From NCBI RefSeq assembly GCF_031679605.1, contig NZ_CP117522.1, positions 5,766,001-5,830,000 of the forward strand: DNA of 64,000 nucleotides, written 5' to 3'. Made by a program: the position numbers and the translations under genes. Source of the stretch: Streptomyces luomodiensis (GTDB taxonomy: Bacteria > Actinomycetota > Actinomycetes > Streptomycetales > Streptomycetaceae). Positions 4,861-64,000 of the stretch are shown piece after piece. The first letter of the stretch is position 1. Each line of letters starts with the position of its first letter. The notes beneath the pieces were generated by a model. That model ran no database searches and was not told the origin of the DNA. It saw only the letters and a program-made list of their open reading frames with translations.

Positions 4861-5323
4861 ATCCCTTTTCGCCTCCCGCGGTACCAAGGTGTCCTCGCGG
4901 GCGCAGGGCCGGCGCCCGACCGGGCCGGCCACGTATCCGGTACGCACCGAGGAGGACCTGCTGACGGTCCGCCACGCGGTGCGCGCGGCCACCGTCGAGG
5001 TGGGCTTCGGCCTGGTGGACCAGACCCGGGTGGTCACGGCCGCCAGCGAGCTCGCCCGTAACGCGTATGTCCACGGGGGCGGCGGCACGGTCACCCTCGA
5101 GTATCCGCGCGAGTCCTCCGGGCGGCGGGGGCTGCGGCTGACCGTCATGGACGAGGGACCGGGGATCGCGGACCTCGACGCGGCGCTGACCGACGGCTTC
5201 ACCACCGGCACCGGCCTGGGCCACGGCCTGGGCGGCGCCCGGCGGCTGATGGACGAGTTCACGGTGCGCACCGGACCGGGTGAGGGCACCGTGGTGGTCG
5301 CCACCCGCTGGACGGTCCGGTGA
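4844..5323 (+). CDS. RsbT-like serine/threonine switch kinase
   Basis: RsbT-family GHKL kinases phosphorylate RsbR and RsbS, are released from the stressosome and activate an RsbU phosphatase. The protein is 159 residues. ATP-fold motifs are visible: N box ASELARNAYVHGGGG, G1 box MDEGPGIADLD and G2 box GTGLGHGLGGARRL. The start is taken at GTG 4844 behind GGAAGGGG; a longer frame from 4760 would lie mostly inside the RsbS gene. It ends in a GTGA overlap with the next gene. Confidence 0.9.
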   Translation: MALPGESLFASRGTKVSSRAQGRRPTGPATYPVRTEEDLLTVRHAVRAATVEVGFGLVDQTRVVTAASELARNAYVHGGGGTVTLEYPRESSGRRGLRLTVMDEGPGIADLDAALTDGFTTGTGLGHGLGGARRLMDEFTVRTGPGEGTVVVATRWTVR

Positions 5324-6339
5324 CCCACCCGCTCACGGCGCCCACCACCGAGGTGCGCGTCGACCACCGCAGCGCCGTGCACCTGGCCGCCGAGACGGCG
5401 CGCGCGGTGGCCCGGGAGTGCGGGCTGCCGGGCGCGCTGCCCGATCAGGCGGCGCTGATCGCCTCGGAGCTGGCGACCAACCTGAACAAGCACGCCGGCG
5501 ACGGCACGCTCTACGTCCAGCCCCTGCCGCTGGGCCACGGTGTGGAGATCGTCGCCGCCGACCGGGGCCCCGGTATGCGGGACCCCGAGCGCTGTCCGGC
5601 GGACGGCTGCACCACCGCCGGAACGCTGGGGGGCGGGCTCGGCGCCGTGAACCGGATGGCCACCCACTTCACCATCCGCAGCGCCGACGGCCCAGGTGCG
5701 GGCACCTGGGCCTGCGCCCGGCTCACCCCGCCGGGCGAGCGGCGGCAGGAGTGGCAGGGGGTGGGCACGGTCTGTCTGCCCGCCGAAGGCGAGGAGGACT
5801 GCGGCGACGCCCGCGCGATCGTCGACACCGGCTCCGCCCGCACCGCGGTCGTCCTCGACGGTCTCGGCCACGGCCGGGCCGCCGCCGAGGCGGCCCAGGC
5901 GGCCCTGGGGGCGTTCCACACCGACCCCGACCGGCCGCTGCCGGAGGTGGTCACCCGGATGCACCGGGTTCTGCGGCACACCCGCGGGGCCGCGGTGGGG
6001 CTGCTGCGGCTGTACCCCGACCGCGCCGACTACTGCGGCATCGGCAACATCCGCGCCCTCGCCCTGAGCCACGAGGGCGTGTCGTACCGGCTGACCGGGC
6101 AGCCCGGGGTGGTCGGCTGGGAGATGCCCGCACCGCGCGTGCACGGCTTCCCGCTGCCCCAGGGGTCCACGGCGGTGCTGCACAGCGACGGCATCGACGC
6201 CCGCTGGGGGCTCGACCCGCCCCCGCGGCTGCTCCGTCTGCCGCCGCCCCTGCTGTCCGCCGCACTCGCCCATGGCCATCGCCGCGTCCGCGACGACGCC
6301 ACGGTTCTCGCGGCCAGGTCTCCCTTAAGGCTTCCATGA
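5320..6339 (+). CDS. RsbX-like PP2C phosphatase fused to a GHKL ATPase domain
   Basis: In Bacillus, RsbX dephosphorylates RsbR and RsbS to reset the stressosome. This 339-residue protein has two parts. Residues 1-135 are a GHKL ATPase-like domain with intact boxes (IASELATNLNKH, AADRGPGMRDP, GTLGGGLGAVNRMA). Residues 150-335 are a SpoIIE/RsbX-type PP2C domain (VLDGLGHGRAAAEAA, VLHSDGIDARWG, VRDDATVLAA). One polypeptide could therefore hold both kinase and phosphatase activity. The GTG start overlaps the RsbT stop and the stop overlaps the next ATG. The fold assignment is firm; the target proteins are inferred from context. Confidence 0.85.
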   Translation: MTHPLTAPTTEVRVDHRSAVHLAAETARAVARECGLPGALPDQAALIASELATNLNKHAGDGTLYVQPLPLGHGVEIVAADRGPGMRDPERCPADGCTTAGTLGGGLGAVNRMATHFTIRSADGPGAGTWACARLTPPGERRQEWQGVGTVCLPAEGEEDCGDARAIVDTGSARTAVVLDGLGHGRAAAEAAQAALGAFHTDPDRPLPEVVTRMHRVLRHTRGAAVGLLRLYPDRADYCGIGNIRALALSHEGVSYRLTGQPGVVGWEMPAPRVHGFPLPQGSTAVLHSDGIDARWGLDPPPRLLRLPPPLLSAALAHGHRRVRDDATVLAARSPLRLP

Positions 6340-7613
6340 CGACGAGGACCCTCACCTGCGCCACGACAGCGGCGCTCAGCCGGGCCGTCCGGGCGCTGGC
6401 CCGGGACCACGCCCTGGACCCGGCGGTCCGGGCACGCCTGGTGCTGTCCGCCGCCGAGGCCGCCGGGGCGGCGCTGCGCGCAGGCCGCGAGACCGGGCTG
6501 ACGTGGGCGTACGACCCGGAGGAGGGGGTGCTCACGGTGGTGCTGCGGATGCCGCCGGGCGGGACGGGCCCGATGGCGGGGGATCTTCCGCTGGCCGCCG
6601 ACGCGGTGACCGAGGACGAGGTGGTGTGGCGCCTCCCGGCGTCCGCTGCGTCCTCGGCGGCCCCGGTGTCCCCGACGTCCCCTGCGTCCCCGGCGTCCCC
6701 GGGGCAGGCGGCGCCCGACGGCGCCGGGGAGGGTGCCCCCGACGACGCCGCCCTCGCCGCCGAGGAGCTGCGGGCCGTCGTGGCCGCCGCCGACGCGCTC
6801 ACCGCCGAGCACCGCCGCCTCAACGACGAACTCGCGGAGACCAACAGCGGGGTGCTCGCGCTCTACGTCCAGCTCGACGAGCGGGACGAGCAGTTGCGCA
6901 CCGCGCACGGCCAGACCCTGCGGGAGCTGGAGGACGCGCTGCGTCCGCCGCCCATCAAGGCCGACGGTCTCGAACTCGCCGTGCACTACGAGCCGGCCGG
7001 CACCGACGCGCCCACCGGCGGCGATCTGTACGACTGGTTCGTGCTGCCCGACGGCACCGTCCACATCACCATCGTGGACGCGCTGGGCCATGGGGTGACC
7101 AGTACGCGCAGCGCGCTCAACGTCACCCACGCGGTGCGCACCCTGGCCCTGGAGGGCCACCGGCTCCAGTCGATCGTGGGCCGCACGGACGAGATCCTGC
7201 GCCCCTTCGACCGGTCGGTGATGGCTACCGTGCTGCTCGCCCGTATCGATCCGGCCACCGGTGAGCTGTGGCTGGCCAACGGGAGCCATCCGCCCGCGCT
7301 GCTGCTGCGCCGCGACGGGTCGGCCCGGTATCTGGAGGCCCGGGGGCGCGGGATCGGCTTCCCGTTGCCCGGCAGCGAGACGCCGCTGACCGAGCGGCTG
7401 GCCCCCGGGGACCTCCTCGTGCTCTACACCGACGGTCTCACCGAGAGCCGCCGGGACCCGATCGAGGGCGAGAAGCGCCTGATCGAGGCCGCGCACAAGC
7501 ATCTGCAGAGCCCGATCGAGGAGGTCCCCGGCGCCATCGCGGAGGATATGCACACGGTGATCCTGCATCCGGACGACACCCTGGCGATGGCGGTGCGGGT
7601 CGCCGGTCGGTGA
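6336..7613 (+). CDS. RsbU-like SpoIIE-family PP2C phosphatase
   Basis: The 425-residue protein starts at ATG 6336, overlapping the previous stop (ATGA). Residues 1-95 look like a degenerate ATPase-type domain without clear nucleotide boxes. A Pro/Ser/Ala linker follows at about 105-130, then a coiled coil at about 140-195 (LTAEHRRLNDELAE), then the PP2C domain with metal-ligand motifs PTGGDLYDWF, VDALGHGVTS, LVLYTDGLTES and DDTLAMAV. By context it is the RsbT-activated output phosphatase of the module, but no sigma factor, anti-sigma or RsbV-type antagonist gene lies beside it, so its substrate is unknown. A terminator follows directly. Confidence 0.86.
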   Translation: MTTRTLTCATTAALSRAVRALARDHALDPAVRARLVLSAAEAAGAALRAGRETGLTWAYDPEEGVLTVVLRMPPGGTGPMAGDLPLAADAVTEDEVVWRLPASAASSAAPVSPTSPASPASPGQAAPDGAGEGAPDDAALAAEELRAVVAAADALTAEHRRLNDELAETNSGVLALYVQLDERDEQLRTAHGQTLRELEDALRPPPIKADGLELAVHYEPAGTDAPTGGDLYDWFVLPDGTVHITIVDALGHGVTSTRSALNVTHAVRTLALEGHRLQSIVGRTDEILRPFDRSVMATVLLARIDPATGELWLANGSHPPALLLRRDGSARYLEARGRGIGFPLPGSETPLTERLAPGDLLVLYTDGLTESRRDPIEGEKRLIEAAHKHLQSPIEEVPGAIAEDMHTVILHPDDTLAMAVRVAGR

Positions 7614-53489: not shown

Positions 53490-54617
53490 GTGACTGAGAT
53501 CGAGATCGGGCGCGGCAAGCGCGGCCGCAGGGCGTACGCGTTCGACGACATCGCCGTTGTGCCGAGTCGTCGTACCCGGGACCCGAAGGAGGTCTCGATC
53601 GCCTGGCAGATCGACGCCTACCGCTTCGAGCTGCCCTTCCTGGCCGCCCCGATGGACTCGGTGGTCTCGCCGCGGACCGCGATCCGCATCGGCGAGCTCG
53701 GCGGTCTCGGGGTGCTCAACCTCGAGGGGCTGTGGACCCGTTACGAGGACCCGGAGCCGCTGCTGGCGGAGATCGCCGAGCTGGACGAGCACACCGCGAC
53801 CACCCGGATGCAGGAGATCTACGCCGAGCCGATCAAGGAGGAGCTGATCGGCCAGCGCCTGAAGGAGGTGCGGGACGCGGGCGTGGTGACCGCCGCGGCC
53901 CTGTCCCCGCAGCGCACGGCGCAGTTCTCCAAGGCCGTGGTGGACGCGGGGGCCGACATCTTCGTGATCCGCGGGACCACGGTCTCCGCCGAGCACGTCT
54001 CCAGCGCCGCCGAGCCGCTCAACCTCAAGCAGTTCATCTACGAGCTGGACGTTCCGGTGATCGTGGGCGGCTGCGCCACCTACACCGCCGCGCTGCATCT
54101 GATGCGCACCGGCGCGGCCGGTGTGCTGGTGGGCTTCGGCGGCGGTGCCGCGCACACCACCCGCAATGTGCTGGGCATCCAGGTGCCGATGGCGACGGCG
54201 GTCGCCGATGTCGCCGCCGCCCGGCGGGACTACATGGACGAGTCCGGCGGCCGCTATGTGCATGTGATCGCCGATGGCGGCGTCGGCTGGAGCGGCGATC
54301 TGCCGAAGGCCATCGCCTGCGGCGCGGACGCGGTGATGATGGGCTCGCCGCTGGCGCGGGCCACGGACGCACCGGGCCGCGGTCACCACTGGGGCATGGA
54401 GGCCGTGCACGACGAGGTGCCGCGCGGCAAGCGGATGAACCTGGGCACGGTGGGCAGCACCGAGGAGATCCTCCTCGGCCCCTCGCACACCCCCGACGGT
54501 TCGATGAACTTCTTCGGCGCGCTGCGCCGCGCCATGGCCACGACCGGCTACTCGGAGCTGAAGGAGTTCCAGCGGGTCGAGGTCACGGTCGCCCCGTCGG
54601 CCCGCGACAAGAGCTGA
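53490..54617 (+). CDS. guaB3: GuaB3-family IMP dehydrogenase-related protein
   Basis: A 375-residue TIM-barrel homologue of IMP dehydrogenase without CBS domains. Where GuaB has GSICTTR, GuaB3 has VGFGGGAAHTTRNVLG, so the catalytic cysteine is missing at the usual place. IADGGVGWSGDLPKAIACGA is the phosphate-binding region. Recent work on cyanobacterial GuaB3, as I recall, assigns GMP-reductase-like activity; the role in Streptomyces is not settled. GTG 53490 has GGGAAAGG. A strong symmetric terminator follows. Confidence 0.93.
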   Translation: MTEIEIGRGKRGRRAYAFDDIAVVPSRRTRDPKEVSIAWQIDAYRFELPFLAAPMDSVVSPRTAIRIGELGGLGVLNLEGLWTRYEDPEPLLAEIAELDEHTATTRMQEIYAEPIKEELIGQRLKEVRDAGVVTAAALSPQRTAQFSKAVVDAGADIFVIRGTTVSAEHVSSAAEPLNLKQFIYELDVPVIVGGCATYTAALHLMRTGAAGVLVGFGGGAAHTTRNVLGIQVPMATAVADVAAARRDYMDESGGRYVHVIADGGVGWSGDLPKAIACGADAVMMGSPLARATDAPGRGHHWGMEAVHDEVPRGKRMNLGTVGSTEEILLGPSHTPDGSMNFFGALRRAMATTGYSELKEFQRVEVTVAPSARDKS

Positions 54618-55805: not shown

Positions 55806-56978
55806 ATGGCGCAGAACAAGTCGTTCAATGGGCGTGACATGGGGATCGACCTCGGCACCGCCAACACACTGGTGTACGTCCGGGGCAGGGGCATCGTGCT
55901 CAATGAGCCGTCGGTTGTGGCGGTCAACACAGTCGACGGCAGTGTGCTGTCGGTGGGTTCGGCGGCCAAGGAGACCATGGGGAGGACGCCGACGAACATC
56001 GTCGCCGTGCGACCGCTGCGCGATGGTGTGATCGCCGATTTCGAGATCGCCGAGCGCATGCTGCGGTATTTCATCAAGAAGGTCATGGGCAGCCGCCGGC
56101 TCGGCCGCCCCCGTGTCGTCGTCTGTGTGCCCTCGGGGATCACGGGCGTTGAGCGGCGCGCGGTGATGGAAGCCGCCACCCGGGCCGGGGCCCGTCAGGT
56201 GCATCTGGTCGAGGAGCCCATCGCGGCCGCGATCGGCGCGGGGCTGCCGGTGAGCGAGCCGACCGGCTGCATGGTCGTCGACATCGGCGGCGGTACGACG
56301 GAGGTCGCCGTGGTCTCGCTGGGCGGCATCGTCACCGCGCGGTCGGTGCGGACGGCGGGCGATGCCATGGACGCGGCGATCAACTCGTATGTGAAGAAGC
56401 AGTACGCGCTGGCGATCGGTGAGCGGACCGCCGAGCAGATCAAGATGTCCATCGGCTCGGCCGCGCCCTCCGGACCGCTGTCCGTACCGCGGGTGTCGGA
56501 GACCGTACGGCGGCCCGAGCGGAATGTGGAGGTGTTCATCCCGGGGCAGAGCGAACCCGGGCAGAGTGGCGACAACGAGGACACCCAGGCGCTGCTGCCG
56601 CCGGACCGCTGCGCCATCCGGGGCCGGGACCAGGCGACCGGGCTGCCCAAGGTGCTCGAACTGACCGCGGATGAGGTGCGGCACGCCCTCACCGAGCCGG
56701 TGGACGCCATCGTCGCGGCGGTGCGCTCCACGCTCGACGAGACCCCGCCGGAGCTGGCGGGCGACATCATGGACCGCGGCATCGTGCTGACCGGCGGCGG
56801 GGCCCTGCTGCGCGGCCTGGACGTACGGCTGGCGCGCGAGCTGAACATCCCGGTGCTGGTGGCCGACGACCCGCTGGACTGCGTGGCCATCGGCACCGGC
56901 CGCTGCGTCGAGGACTTCGCCTCGCTGCGCACGGCGATGGACGCGCGGCCCCGCAGACCGGACGCCGTGCGGGTGTGA
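55806..56978 (+). CDS. MreB/Mbl-family actin-like protein with an insertion
   Basis: A 390-residue bacterial actin homologue. Nucleotide-fold motifs are intact: phosphate-1 [15 protein letters not shown], phosphate-2 [19 protein letters not shown] and adenosine [14 protein letters not shown]. Compared with canonical MreB, about 48 extra residues occur at 221-268, between [10 protein letters not shown] and [12 protein letters not shown], with [10 protein letters not shown] repeats. It is not beside mreC/mreD, so it is probably an accessory Mbl-type copy; in streptomycetes such proteins act in spore-wall synthesis. ATG 55806. A DUF6049-type gene follows on the same strand. Confidence 0.86.
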
Positions 56979-57332: not shown

Positions 57333-59759
<2,427 letters not shown>

Positions 59760-59811: not shown

Positions 59812-61083
59812 TCAGAGCCGGTGCGCGGTCCCCGCCGGCCCGGCGCCCCGGGTGTCCAGCAGCAGCTGGGCCTTCACCGCGAGTCCTTGCAGGTCGTAGG
59901 TGCGATGGTGTTGCAGCAGGACGGTCAGGTCGGCGTCGGCCGCCGCCTCGTACACCGACTCCGCGCGCTCCACCTCGCGCCCCAGCACCCGCCATCGCGT
60001 GAGGTACGGATCGTGGTAGCCGATCCGGGCGCCCAGCTCCATCAGCCGGGAGGCGATCTCCCGCGCGGGCGAGCCCTCCGCGTCGGCGACGTCGGGTTTG
60101 TAGCCGACGCCCAGCAGCAGGACCCGCGCGCCGCGCGCCGACTTCCCGTACTCGTTGAGCAGGGCCGTGCAGCGGCGGGTGACATAGCCCGGCATCCGGC
60201 CGTTGACCTGCTGGGCGAGCCCGACCATGCGCAGCGGGAGGCCGAGGCCGTGCTGCTGGTCCGCCATGTGGTCGTGGTCGACCGGTACGCCGTGGCCGCC
60301 GACGCCGGGCCCTGGCCGGAAGGACTGGAAGCCGAACGGCTTGGTCTCGGCGCAGCGGACCACGTCCCACACATCGACGCCCAGGTCATGGCAGTACACC
60401 GCCAGCTCATTGACCAGGGCGATGTTGACGTGCCGGTAATTGGTCTCCAGGACCTTGACGGTCTCGGCCTCACGGGTGCCGCGGGCCCGGACCACCTTTT
60501 CGGTGAAGCGGCCGTAGAAGGCGGCGGCCGCCTCGGTGCAGGCGGGGGTGAGGCCGCCGATGACCTTGGGGGTGTTGGCGGGGCCGTGGGCGCGGTTCCC
60601 GGGGTCGTGGCGGCAGGGGGAGTAGGCGAGGTGGAAGTCGCGCCCGGCCCGCAGTCCGGACCCGTCCTCCAGAAGGGGACGGAGGAATTCCTCGGTGGTC
60701 CCGGGGTACACGGTGGACTCCAGCAGAACGGTGGTGTGCGGACGCAGCCGCGCCGCGAGCGTGCGGGCCGCCTCGCCGACCGCCGACAGATCCAGTCTGC
60801 GGTCGTTCCCGAGCGGGGTCGGGGCGCAGATGACGGCGGTGCGGACGCGGCCGAGCTCGGCCGCGTCGGCGGTGATCCGGAAGCCCCGGGCGGCCATCCG
60901 GCGCAGCTCGGCGGCGGACAGCCGGCCCTCACCCGAGCAGGAGGGCAGCCGCCCGGCCCGGAGGTCGTCGGCGGCGCGCGGATCGGGGTCGTAGCCGATG
61001 GTGCGGACACCGGCGGCGGTGGCGGCCTGGGCGAGAGGAATACCGAGATGACCGAGTCCGATGACGGCGAGATCTGCGGGCAT
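59812..61083 (-). CDS. UDP-sugar dehydrogenase homologue lacking key catalytic residues
   Basis: A 423-residue protein with the full nucleotide-sugar dehydrogenase layout: NAD domain DLAVIGLGHLGIPLAQA, CAPTPLGND, LESTVYPGTTEEFLRP and the central helix region VNIALVNELAVYCHDLGVDV. The active site is altered. SPER is SPCR (C157), ENTYR is ETNYR (T214 where Asn is expected) and GGHCIPVDP is GGHGVPVDH (G265 in place of the catalytic Cys). K210 and D269 remain. Oxidation to a uronate by the usual thiohemiacetal route is therefore unlikely; it may be an epimerase-like, binding or regulatory variant. ATG 61083. Confidence 0.85.
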   Translation of the reverse strand: MPADLAVIGLGHLGIPLAQAATAAGVRTIGYDPDPRAADDLRAGRLPSCSGEGRLSAAELRRMAARGFRITADAAELGRVRTAVICAPTPLGNDRRLDLSAVGEAARTLAARLRPHTTVLLESTVYPGTTEEFLRPLLEDGSGLRAGRDFHLAYSPCRHDPGNRAHGPANTPKVIGGLTPACTEAAAAFYGRFTEKVVRARGTREAETVKVLETNYRHVNIALVNELAVYCHDLGVDVWDVVRCAETKPFGFQSFRPGPGVGGHGVPVDHDHMADQQHGLGLPLRMVGLAQQVNGRMPGYVTRRCTALLNEYGKSARGARVLLLGVGYKPDVADAEGSPAREIASRLMELGARIGYHDPYLTRWRVLGREVERAESVYEAAADADLTVLLQHHRTYDLQGLAVKAQLLLDTRGAGPAGTAHRL

Positions 61084-61325: not shown

Positions 61326-63032
61326 GTGAAAACACCGGCACTGGGACCGGCCGAGCGCGCCGAGGCGCTGGCCCGGATGGCGGACCGTGAGCTGGATGTG
61401 CTGGTCGTGGGCGGTGGAGTGGTCGGCGCGGGCACCGCGCTGGACGCCGCGACACGGGGCCTGGAGACCGGTCTGGTCGAGGCGCGGGACTGGGCCTCCG
61501 GGACCTCCAGCCGGTCCAGCAAGCTGATCCACGGCGGACTGCGCTATCTGGAGATGCTCGACTTCGCACTGGTGCGCGAAGCGCTGAAGGAGCGCGGGCT
61601 GCTGCTGGAGCGGATCGCGCCGCACCTGGTCAAACCGGTGCCATTCCTGTATCCGCTGAAGCACCGGGTCTGGGAGCGGTGCTACGCGGGATCGGGCGTG
61701 GCGCTCTACGACGCCATGTCCTTCTCCTCCGGGCACGGCCGGGGACTGCCCGCCCACCGCCATCTGACCCGCGGGCGGGCACTGCGGGTCGCGCCCTGCC
61801 TGAGGAAGGACGCGCTGGTGGGGGCGTTGCAGTACTACGACGCCCAGATGGACGACGCGCGCTACGTCACGATGCTGGTGCGCACGGCGGCCGCGTACGG
61901 CGCGCAGGTCGCCAACCGCGCCCGGGTGGTCGGTTTCCTGCGGGAGGGGGAGCGCGTGGTCGGCGCGCGGGTGCACGACCTGGAGCAGGGGGGTGAGTTC
62001 GAGGTCCGCGCCCGGCAGGTGGTGAACGCCACCGGGGTGTGGACGGACGAGACCCAGGCGCTGATCGGGGAGCGCGGCCAGTTCCACGTCCGGGCCTCCA
62101 AGGGCATCCACCTGGTCGTCCCCAAGGACCGCATCCACTCCACGACCGGGCTGATCCTGCGCACCGAGAAGAGCGTGCTCTTCGTGATCCCCTGGGGCAG
62201 GCACTGGGTCATCGGCACCACGGACACCGACTGGGACCTGGACAAGGCCCACCCGGCCGCCTCCAGTGCCGATATCGACTATCTGCTGGAGCATGTCAAC
62301 GAGGTCCTCGCGGTGCCGCTGACCCGCGACGACGTGGAAGGCGTCTACGCCGGGCTGCGCCCGCTGCTGGCCGGGGAGTCGGAGGCCACCAGCAAGCTCT
62401 CGCGCGAGCACACGGTCGCCCATCCGGTGCCGGGCCTGGTGGTGGTCGCGGGCGGCAAGTACACCACGTACCGGGTGATGGCCAAGGACGCCGTGGACGA
62501 GGCGGTGCACGGTCTGGACCACCGGGTCGGGCCCTGTGTCACCGAGGAGGTTCCGCTGGTCGGCGCCGTCGGCTACAAGGCGCTGTGGAACGCGCGGGCG
62601 CGGATCGGCCGCCAGACCGGGCTGCACGTGGCGCGGATCGAGCATCTGCTGAACCGTTACGGCTCGGCCGCTCAGGAGGTGCTGGAGCTGATCACGGACG
62701 ACTCGTCGCTGGGCGAGCCGCTCGCCGGGGCGGACGACTATCTGCGGGCCGAGGTCGTCTACGCCGCCTCGCACGAGGGGGCCCGCCATCTGGACGACGT
62801 CCTCACCCGGCGCACCCGCATCTCGATCGAGACCTTCGACCGCGGCACGCGCTGCGCCCGCGAGGCGGCCGGGCTGATGGGGCCCGTGCTGGGCTGGGAC
62901 GAGGACCAGATCGACCGGGAGGTCCAGCACTACGAGAAGCGGGTGGAGGCGGAGCGCGAGTCCCAGCGCCAGCTGGACGATCTGACGGCGGACGCGGCCC
63001 GGCTGGGCGCGCCGGACATCGTCCCGCTGTAA
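61326..63032 (+). CDS. glpD: Aerobic glycerol-3-phosphate dehydrogenase
   Basis: A membrane-associated FAD enzyme that oxidises sn-glycerol-3-phosphate to dihydroxyacetone phosphate and passes electrons to the quinone pool. It is 568 residues. The FAD motif is VLVVGGGVVGAGTALDAATR; SSRSSKLIHGGLRYLEMLDF is the conserved substrate and flavin region; KYTTYRVMAKDAVD and the C-terminal helical domain complete the fold. GTG 61326 has GGGAGG upstream. glpF and glpK are not adjacent in this window. Confidence 0.95.
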   Translation: MKTPALGPAERAEALARMADRELDVLVVGGGVVGAGTALDAATRGLETGLVEARDWASGTSSRSSKLIHGGLRYLEMLDFALVREALKERGLLLERIAPHLVKPVPFLYPLKHRVWERCYAGSGVALYDAMSFSSGHGRGLPAHRHLTRGRALRVAPCLRKDALVGALQYYDAQMDDARYVTMLVRTAAAYGAQVANRARVVGFLREGERVVGARVHDLEQGGEFEVRARQVVNATGVWTDETQALIGERGQFHVRASKGIHLVVPKDRIHSTTGLILRTEKSVLFVIPWGRHWVIGTTDTDWDLDKAHPAASSADIDYLLEHVNEVLAVPLTRDDVEGVYAGLRPLLAGESEATSKLSREHTVAHPVPGLVVVAGGKYTTYRVMAKDAVDEAVHGLDHRVGPCVTEEVPLVGAVGYKALWNARARIGRQTGLHVARIEHLLNRYGSAAQEVLELITDDSSLGEPLAGADDYLRAEVVYAASHEGARHLDDVLTRRTRISIETFDRGTRCAREAAGLMGPVLGWDEDQIDREVQHYEKRVEAERESQRQLDDLTADAARLGAPDIVPL

Positions 63033-63197: not shown

Positions 63198-64000
63198 TTA
63201 CGGTCGAGGGCAGAACTCGGCTTCGAGCAGAGACGTTTCGGCGGGCAGACCGGAACGGGCCGTGCCGTTGAGCCGGTAGGCGAGGGTGTGGCGGCCGTCG
63301 GAGGTGGCCACGGCCATCACGGAGGAGCCGGTGATCTCGCCGTTGTGGCCCCACAGGGTCACTCCGCACGACAGTCGCACCGGGAACAGCCCCATGCCGT
63401 ACTGGCCGTCGGAGGCGGACGTGTTCCGCATCCGCCGCAGCTCGGCCCGGGGCAGGACCTCGCCGCGCAGCAGCCCGGAGACGAGGCGGCTCAGATCGTC
63501 GAGGGTGGAGATCAGCTCCCCCGCCGCCCCCGCCGAGGAGGGGTTGAGCTCGGTGACATCGCGTCGGGCGCCGTCGGCCGAGGCGCCGCCGTCCCGCGTG
63601 TACGCGCGGCCGTGCGGGGCCGGGAGGATGGTGCGGGCACCGGGGAAGGAGGTGCCGTCCAAACGCAGCGGGACGAGCACGTCGCGCCGGGCCTCGGCCG
63701 CGTAGGAGCGGCCGGTGACCTGCTGGACGACCATGCCCAGCAGGACGTAGTTGGTGTTGGAGTAGCGCCACTCGGCCCCGGGCGCGAAGGAGGGGCGGTG
63801 CGCCAGGGCGGTGCGCACCAGGGAGGCGGGGGTGTGGGTGCGGTCGGCCGCGGCGGACAGCTCACGCGCGAGCACCGGGTCGTCGGTGTAGTCGAACAGC
63901 CCGCTGGTCTGGTTCAGCAGCTGACGGAGTGTGATCTTCCGACCGTCGTTGCCATGTCCGCGTACCAGCCCCGGAAGGTGCTCCTCCACCGTGTCCCCGA
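63198..64000 (-). CDS. Serine hydrolase, class C beta-lactamase/D-Ala-D-Ala carboxypeptidase family (5' end outside window)
   Basis: The C-terminal 267 residues or so of a penicillin-binding-type serine hydrolase. The second motif is YSNTNYVLLG (YxN), and the third is WGHNGEITG (HxG), typical of the secreted streptomycete carboxypeptidase/beta-lactamase family; ITLRQLLNQTSGLFDYTDDP is the usual segment after the first motif. The SxxK nucleophile lies upstream of 64000. The frame continues to the window edge; the GTG at 63989 is internal. It is probably secreted. Confidence 0.87.
   Translation of the reverse strand, partial: GDTVEEHLPGLVRGHGNDGRKITLRQLLNQTSGLFDYTDDPVLARELSAAADRTHTPASLVRTALAHRPSFAPGAEWRYSNTNYVLLGMVVQQVTGRSYAAEARRDVLVPLRLDGTSFPGARTILPAPHGRAYTRDGGASADGARRDVTELNPSSAGAAGELISTLDDLSRLVSGLLRGEVLPRAELRRMRNTSASDGQYGMGLFPVRLSCGVTLWGHNGEITGSSVMAVATSDGRHTLAYRLNGTARSGLPAETSLLEAEFCPRP

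Follow-up and report, generated by a model that had tools for sequence, protein, structure and literature searches.

A Nucleotide-Sugar Dehydrogenase Homologue in Streptomyces

The stretch of DNA analyzed here (the window, 64,000 nucleotides of Streptomyces luomodiensis contig NZ_CP117522.1, positions 5,766,001 to 5,830,000) encodes on its minus strand a homologue of nucleotide-sugar dehydrogenases that appears to have lost much of the machinery for that chemistry. This putative pseudo-dehydrogenase gene (59812..61083, stop codon included) begins with an ATG at 61083 and predicts a protein of 423 amino acids; guanine and cytosine make up 91.5% of its third codon positions, and the start is supported by the 249 of 282 family sequences that open with MPADLA. 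These 282 distinct sequences, which include the window protein, came from a database search, from another that started with a deep-branching relative as query, and from whole-genome loci; identical sequences were removed and near-identical ones retained. The best 120 database relatives listed are 74-94% identical to the window protein, and the protein encoded by Streptomyces sp. S465, a second assembly, is 100% identical to it.

Full-length matches to the Pfam profiles PF03721 (95.7 bits), PF00984 (85.2 bits) and PF03720 (57 bits), all above cut-off, and a TIGR03026 score of 336.5 bits (cut-off 189.8) identify the protein as a nucleotide-sugar dehydrogenase homologue and bear out an earlier inspection of the DNA alone (the sequence-only reading), in which the landmarks of the fold were judged intact. 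The NCBIfam equivalog cut-offs were missed (NF008286, 178.9 against 459; NF011729, 147.7 against 592; NF040825, 185 against 750), which places the protein outside WecC/TviB. The overall fold is also found in a predicted structure, in which a long helix at residues 203-234 is intact; a first model, built from 81 close sequences, was discarded because its predicted local distance difference test score (pLDDT) was below 50 over most of residues 214-290. Four other members of the dehydrogenase family are encoded in the same 10.04 Mb single-contig genome; they are 26-29% identical to the 423-residue protein and carry the full canonical residue set.

Lost and Drifting Catalytic Positions

Family sequences were compared with 140 canonical-type sequences, 20 of them chosen from genome hits (45-57% identity) and 120 retrieved with one of these as the database query. 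Residue roles were mapped in SpUGDH numbering from PMC4794789, whose alignment numbering is given in braces. There, Lys204 and Asn208 are described as stabilizers of the first oxidation, Cys260 as the covalent catalyst (thiohemiacetal/thioester), Glu141 as holding the active-site loop, Thr118 as binding a water that Asp264 activates, Tyr10 as the catalyst of the last thioester hydrolysis, and Arg327 as salt-bridged to the pyrophosphate of nicotinamide adenine dinucleotide (NAD).

The sequence-only reading had reported three replaced catalytic residues, and translation of 61083..59812 reproduces all three to the base. Cys157 (TGC, 60613..60615; this and all other codons given are on the minus strand) occupies the position at which canonical enzymes invariably have Glu (SpUGDH Glu141), Thr214-Asn215 (60439..60444, with the Thr214 codon ACC at 60442-60444) that of a canonical Asn-Thr pair whose first residue is SpUGDH Asn208, and Gly265 (GGC, 60289..60291, as had been stated) that of the catalytic Cys (SpUGDH Cys260). 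Three was an undercount, as His12 (61048..61050) and Glu336 (60076..60078) are also substitutions at functional positions, replacing a canonical Tyr (SpUGDH Tyr10) and Arg (SpUGDH Arg327).

The losses extend through the family. Glu is found at position 157 in one of 282 family sequences, Asn at 214 in eight and Cys at 265 in six, compared with 140/140 canonical-type sequences in each case; Tyr12 is present in 3/282 versus 139/140 (one gap), and position 336, Arg in 140/140, is Arg in only 4 family sequences, Glu in 174 and Gln in 76. Residue 157 is Ser in 148 sequences, Gly in 82, Thr in 17, Cys, Asn and Ala in 10 each, His and Asp in 2 each, and Glu in 1, so that neither the SPCR motif proposed as a signature of orthologues nor the suggestion that Cys157 is a relocated thiol survived the comparison. 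Lys210 (60454..60456, SpUGDH Lys204) and Asp269 (60277..60279, SpUGDH Asp264) had been described as retained, and both are present in the window protein; across the family this holds for Asp269 (274/282, 3 gaps) but less so for position 210, which drifts (Lys 200, Gln 34, Arg 21, Gly 12, His 8, Ala 4, and Asn, Ser and Thr 1 each). The canonical Thr124 (SpUGDH Thr118) is kept in 76/282; the canonical-type sequences have both this Thr and Lys210 in 140/140. None of the 282 sequences combines the canonical Glu, Lys, Asn, Cys and Asp, indicating that the loss is not local to this genome. Of the 18 invariant residues of PMC4794789, 15 are found in the window protein and 11-17 across the family, compared with all 18 in 20/20 canonical-type sequences. 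By this alignment, the family as a whole has lost the residues that serve both hydride transfers and the thioester cycle, as well as the one that forms a salt bridge with the NAD pyrophosphate.

A separate subfamily of unusual nucleoside diphosphate (NDP)-sugar dehydrogenases from related Actinobacteria was seen among our 50 control proteins, of which it makes up seven. Like the window family, its members lack Tyr, Asn and Arg at the canonical positions, with Thr at the Asn site; unlike the window family, they keep the Glu, Lys and Cys, and they have Tyr in place of the Asp, marking them as a distinct family with the motifs ETTYRD, GGHCIP[VI]YP and YRGGVKETAFS.

The Sugar-Nucleotide Pocket and NAD Site

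Residues expected to contact a uridine diphosphate (UDP)-sugar are, in contrast to the catalytic positions, well kept. According to PMC4794789, the pocket for UDP-N-acetylmannosamine (UDP-ManNAc) includes Arg{259} and Arg{359}, and SpUGDH Lys320 coordinates the UDP-sugar diphosphate; the equivalents here are the sugar-pocket residue Arg158 (60610..60612, 280/282), the alpha-phosphate ligand Arg217 (60433..60435, 281/282), both typical of the UDP-ManNAc group, and the diphosphate ligand Lys329 (60097..60099, 276/282). Together with Pro161 (Pro{262}) and Gly262 (SpUGDH Gly257) these residues are jointly present in 274/282 sequences, and 3,383 of 100,000 random draws of five columns were equally well kept. 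Six of the nine UDPNAMDH group markers in that source, Glu{215}, Arg{259}, Pro{262}, Arg{359}, Val{407} and His{410}, are all present in the window protein, and in 281, 280, 279, 281, 276 and 225 of the 282 family sequences, respectively. Two more of the nine were mapped: {414} is Val in the window protein (Val in 89 and Ile in 55 of 282), and His{391} is replaced by Lys248, as it is by Lys in 277/282 family sequences and in 20/20 canonical-type homologues.

The NAD-site residues Gly9, Gly11, Gly14, Asp32 and Thr89 are all present in 212/282 sequences, and of the 70 with a loss at this site 67 keep the UDP-sugar set. Gly11, the second glycine of the GxGxxG motif, is replaced in 23/282; its loss in some lineages, while 274/282 retain the UDP-sugar ligands, hints at weaker constraint on NAD binding.

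Selection and the Order of Loss

In a joint alignment of the family and canonical-type sequences, with invariance set at 97% or more, 88 positions were invariant in both sets, 20 canonical invariants were lost, and 27 positions were newly invariant in the family. The new invariants include Arg61, Arg62, Arg192, Arg199, Arg201, Asn215 (280/282, where all 140 canonical-type sequences have Thr), Arg243, Glu246 (282/282), Glu311, Lys314, Arg317, Lys404 and Arg422. Ratios of nonsynonymous to synonymous substitution rates (dN/dS) ranged over 0.075-0.304 among 15 family pairs, with 0.17-0.26 in three canonical-type pairs and 0.10-0.22 in four pairs of the neighboring gene glpD. Because the loss is family-wide, dN/dS is low and 27 positions have become invariant, these comparisons indicate a constrained, altered protein and not a decaying one, in agreement with the sequence-only reading.

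When 50 family and 11 canonical-type sequences were placed on a quick tree, without bootstrap and with the trait columns masked, the family formed one clade (Shimodaira-Hasegawa approximate likelihood ratio test, 100). Its first-branching clade holds eight sequences, including two from named Wenjunlia species. All eight have Thr157, and five of them have Lys210, Asn214, Asn215 and Cys265, which suggests that the stem saw the loss of Glu157 and the gain of Asn215, and that Cys265 and Asn214 were lost later. The protein of Wenjunlia vitaminophila, a natural intermediate, has retained Cys and Asn. The six Cys265 sequences fall in this clade wherever they were placed on the tree; Asn214 also occurs in three scattered later sequences, making the order less clean at that site. 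Position 157 requires at least 18 changes and position 215 only 2. Catalytic loss thus appears to have been stepwise, Glu first, and not coordinated as had been proposed, with reversals possible on a quick tree of this kind.

Distribution and Genomic Context

Orthologues were found in 121/121 sampled genomes of the genus, two of them (G050 and G102) partial at contig ends, and there was no stop within any listed match. In one genome (G010:C2:4337616-4338539) the match covers residues 1-310 only on a long contig, a possible truncation or frameshift. In a family-level sample, orthologues at identities of at least 64% were counted by hand in 83/150 genomes, representing 9/17 genera.

The constant neighbor is glpD (61326..63032, plus strand; Pfam DAO/DAO_C), of the glycerol-3-phosphate dehydrogenase family, which is divergent from the gene in all 73 named loci with enough flank (80 were fetched and 7 excluded for short flanks). 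A guaB3-like gene of the inosine monophosphate (IMP) dehydrogenase family (53490..54617, plus strand; PF00478, 150 bits in the window) lies within 5 kb in 60/73 loci, and the other 13 have an MreB-like/DUF6049 insertion. Twelve genomes of genera without the gene were queried for remnants: no glpD passed the cut-off in three, two had guaB3 and glpD that were not adjacent, and in the remaining seven guaB3 and glpD were neighbors, with no remnant found at the junction by tblastn and a gap of about 120-230 bases in five of the seven. At this junction the gene seems either to have been inserted or to have been cleanly lost.

Two genes that drew attention in the sequence-only reading, which imagined a role in the envelope, are indeed close by here. 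One is a fourth MreB/Mbl-type gene (55806-56978, plus strand; PF06723, 464.7 bits), in which a split match suggests an insert after residue 222, and the other encodes a DUF6049 protein of 808 amino acids (57333-59759, plus strand; PF19516, 154.8 bits), is convergent with our gene and is variably present among relatives. About 11 of 150 genomes, read by hand from coordinates, have an MreB-type copy distinct from the usual MreB/Mbl, and in the 10 whose contigs permit the measurement this copy is no more than about 6 kb away from the gene. The arrangement is not constant: both neighbors were found in 3/20 regions (two of the 20 short), and among the 73 named loci MreB-like genes occur in 26 and DUF6049 genes in 16. 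Set beside the 73/73 for glpD, these counts weaken the proposal; an envelope role, drawn from the neighborhood, is a weak possibility.

Beyond glpD lies a gene for a serine hydrolase of the beta-lactamase family (PF00144, minus strand), which runs past the window edge (63198-64000, continuing at 5199-6410 of the flanking region L193) and had a dN/dS of 0.47 in one measured pair, above its neighbors. The first gene past glpD with a kinase motif encodes a Ser/Thr kinase just beyond the window (L193, 6443-8551; Pkinase, 156 bits); the kinase-loop motif occurs in 24/25 regions around the locus and nowhere within the window itself. In Streptomyces coelicolor the kinase cluster SCO4775-4779 is reported in PMC4416010 to act on the spore-wall proteins MreC and PBP2, and by its position among SCO4771 (IMP dehydrogenase), SCO4772 (transposase) and these kinases the orthologue there should be SCO4773, of which our literature search found no mention. 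Gene neighborhood would be the basis of any link between the gene and the kinases or the spore wall.

A Probable Pseudoenzyme and Its Alternatives

The nearest characterized relatives are the UDP-ManNAc and UDP-N-acetylhexosamine (UDP-HexNAc) 6-dehydrogenases (WecC, Cap5O, Pyrococcus horikoshii 4r16; TIGR03026). From these the window protein differs in being without Tyr12, Glu157, Asn214, Cys265 and Arg336, and its family in having its own Asn215, Glu246, Arg-rich positions and a tail that ends in Arg-Leu. Judged from sequence, catalytic residues are missing from an otherwise intact, selected protein, the pattern of a pseudoenzyme, and conserved loss of this kind with fold and selection retained recalls prozyme-type paralogues and pseudokinases. 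Pseudoenzymes are already known, and regulation, scaffolding and competition are among their outcomes in PMC10211241. Among the literature matches listed, with subscription papers mostly outside the search, we found no pseudoenzyme in the NDP-sugar dehydrogenase family and nothing on the window family; a genus-core pseudo NDP-sugar dehydrogenase was likewise not found in the literature searched.

The window protein is very likely inactive as a dehydrogenase. We think it reasonably probable that it descends from a UDP-HexNAc-type 6-dehydrogenase and is now a conserved pseudoenzyme, one that works through the binding of a UDP-sugar and probably serves as a sensor or regulator, not as an enzyme; on UDP-sugar binding as the retained function we lean only slightly in favor. 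Such a protein would be incapable of the four-electron oxidation. It would still bind the UDP-sugar, with NAD perhaps bound weakly or not at all, ligand binding would alter its shape or assembly, and it would act on a partner through the new Arg-, Lys- and Glu-rich conserved positions, giving Streptomyces and its near relatives a regulator or scaffold that responds to nucleotide sugars.

Several observations weigh against this interpretation. Of 14 mapped catalytic and NAD positions, 7 are lost or drifting and the other 7 are kept in most family members. The seven lost columns, which none of 100,000 random draws of seven canonical-invariant columns matched in poor retention, were partly picked after the losses had been seen. 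Single canonical residues are absent from other NDP-sugar dehydrogenases as well: among the 50 controls Tyr12 is kept in 36, and Asn214, Asp269 and Arg336 in 43 each, so that only Glu157, Lys210 and Cys265 discriminate cleanly. The window protein has all five NAD-site residues and may still bind NAD, and a pure scaffold would need neither Asp269, Glu207 (282/282) nor the Rossmann glycines, all of which are kept. UDP-sugar ligand retention is a reading of residues by homology, and the retained structure model, built from 89 sequences of which 56 are canonical, is biased to the canonical fold.

The kept residues might instead mean that the protein is still an enzyme, one that acts on a UDP-sugar by other chemistry, such as a non-redox or two-electron step, with Asp269 and new residues like Asn215 and Glu246 taking part. 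Near-invariance of these three and a complete NAD site in 212/282 sequences fit this idea, but the Lys210 required in the first oxidation is replaced in 82/282, position 157 drifts over nine residues, the NAD-pyrophosphate Arg336 is Glu or Gln in 250/282, and 70/282 have an incomplete NAD site; we regard it as unlikely. More doubtful still is a role as regulatory subunit, assembled into a mixed oligomer with one of the cell's canonical NDP-sugar dehydrogenases. The predicted fold is intact, including the helix at 203-234, whose counterpart contributes to homodimer contacts according to PMC4794789, and enzyme/pseudoenzyme pairs in other families are described in PMC10211241. Unlike those pairs, however, no close active paralogue was detected in nearly half of the genus genomes: by hand count, 59/121 had no second homologue at E <= 1e-60 among the matches scored, and given this absence and the low identity of the four paralogues in the S. 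luomodiensis genome, a fixed partner would need to be a distant paralogue. That the gene is decaying or dispensable, or its substitutions sequencing errors, is hardly credible. Catalytic loss with drift at 157, 210 and 124 resembles relaxed constraint on catalysis, and the G010 match is short, but the low dN/dS, the new invariants, the lack of internal stops in the listed matches and the identical protein in a second assembly speak against both, and with the loss being family-wide we rejected sequencing error and pseudogene alike.

The alignments and loci show a core gene under purifying selection at one locus, and the UDP-sugar-binding pseudoenzyme remains our preferred account. As a tentative and rather unlikely extension, it could be a core Streptomyces sensor that signals the level of a sugar precursor of the cell wall, for instance UDP-N-acetylglucosamine, to a partner through the newly evolved conserved positions and is perhaps tied to the glycerol-phosphate metabolism of glpD or to the nearby spore-wall Ser/Thr kinases. 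Database entries name these proteins either "nucleotide sugar dehydrogenase" or "UDP-N-acetyl-D-glucosamine dehydrogenase", and metabolic reconstructions of this large antibiotic-producing genus may therefore include a step of which the proteins are probably incapable. With the early-branching intermediates at hand, the order of loss can be put to the test, and a core gene that is selected in all sampled genomes of the genus without its chemistry may offer a handle on nucleotide-sugar sensing in Streptomyces.
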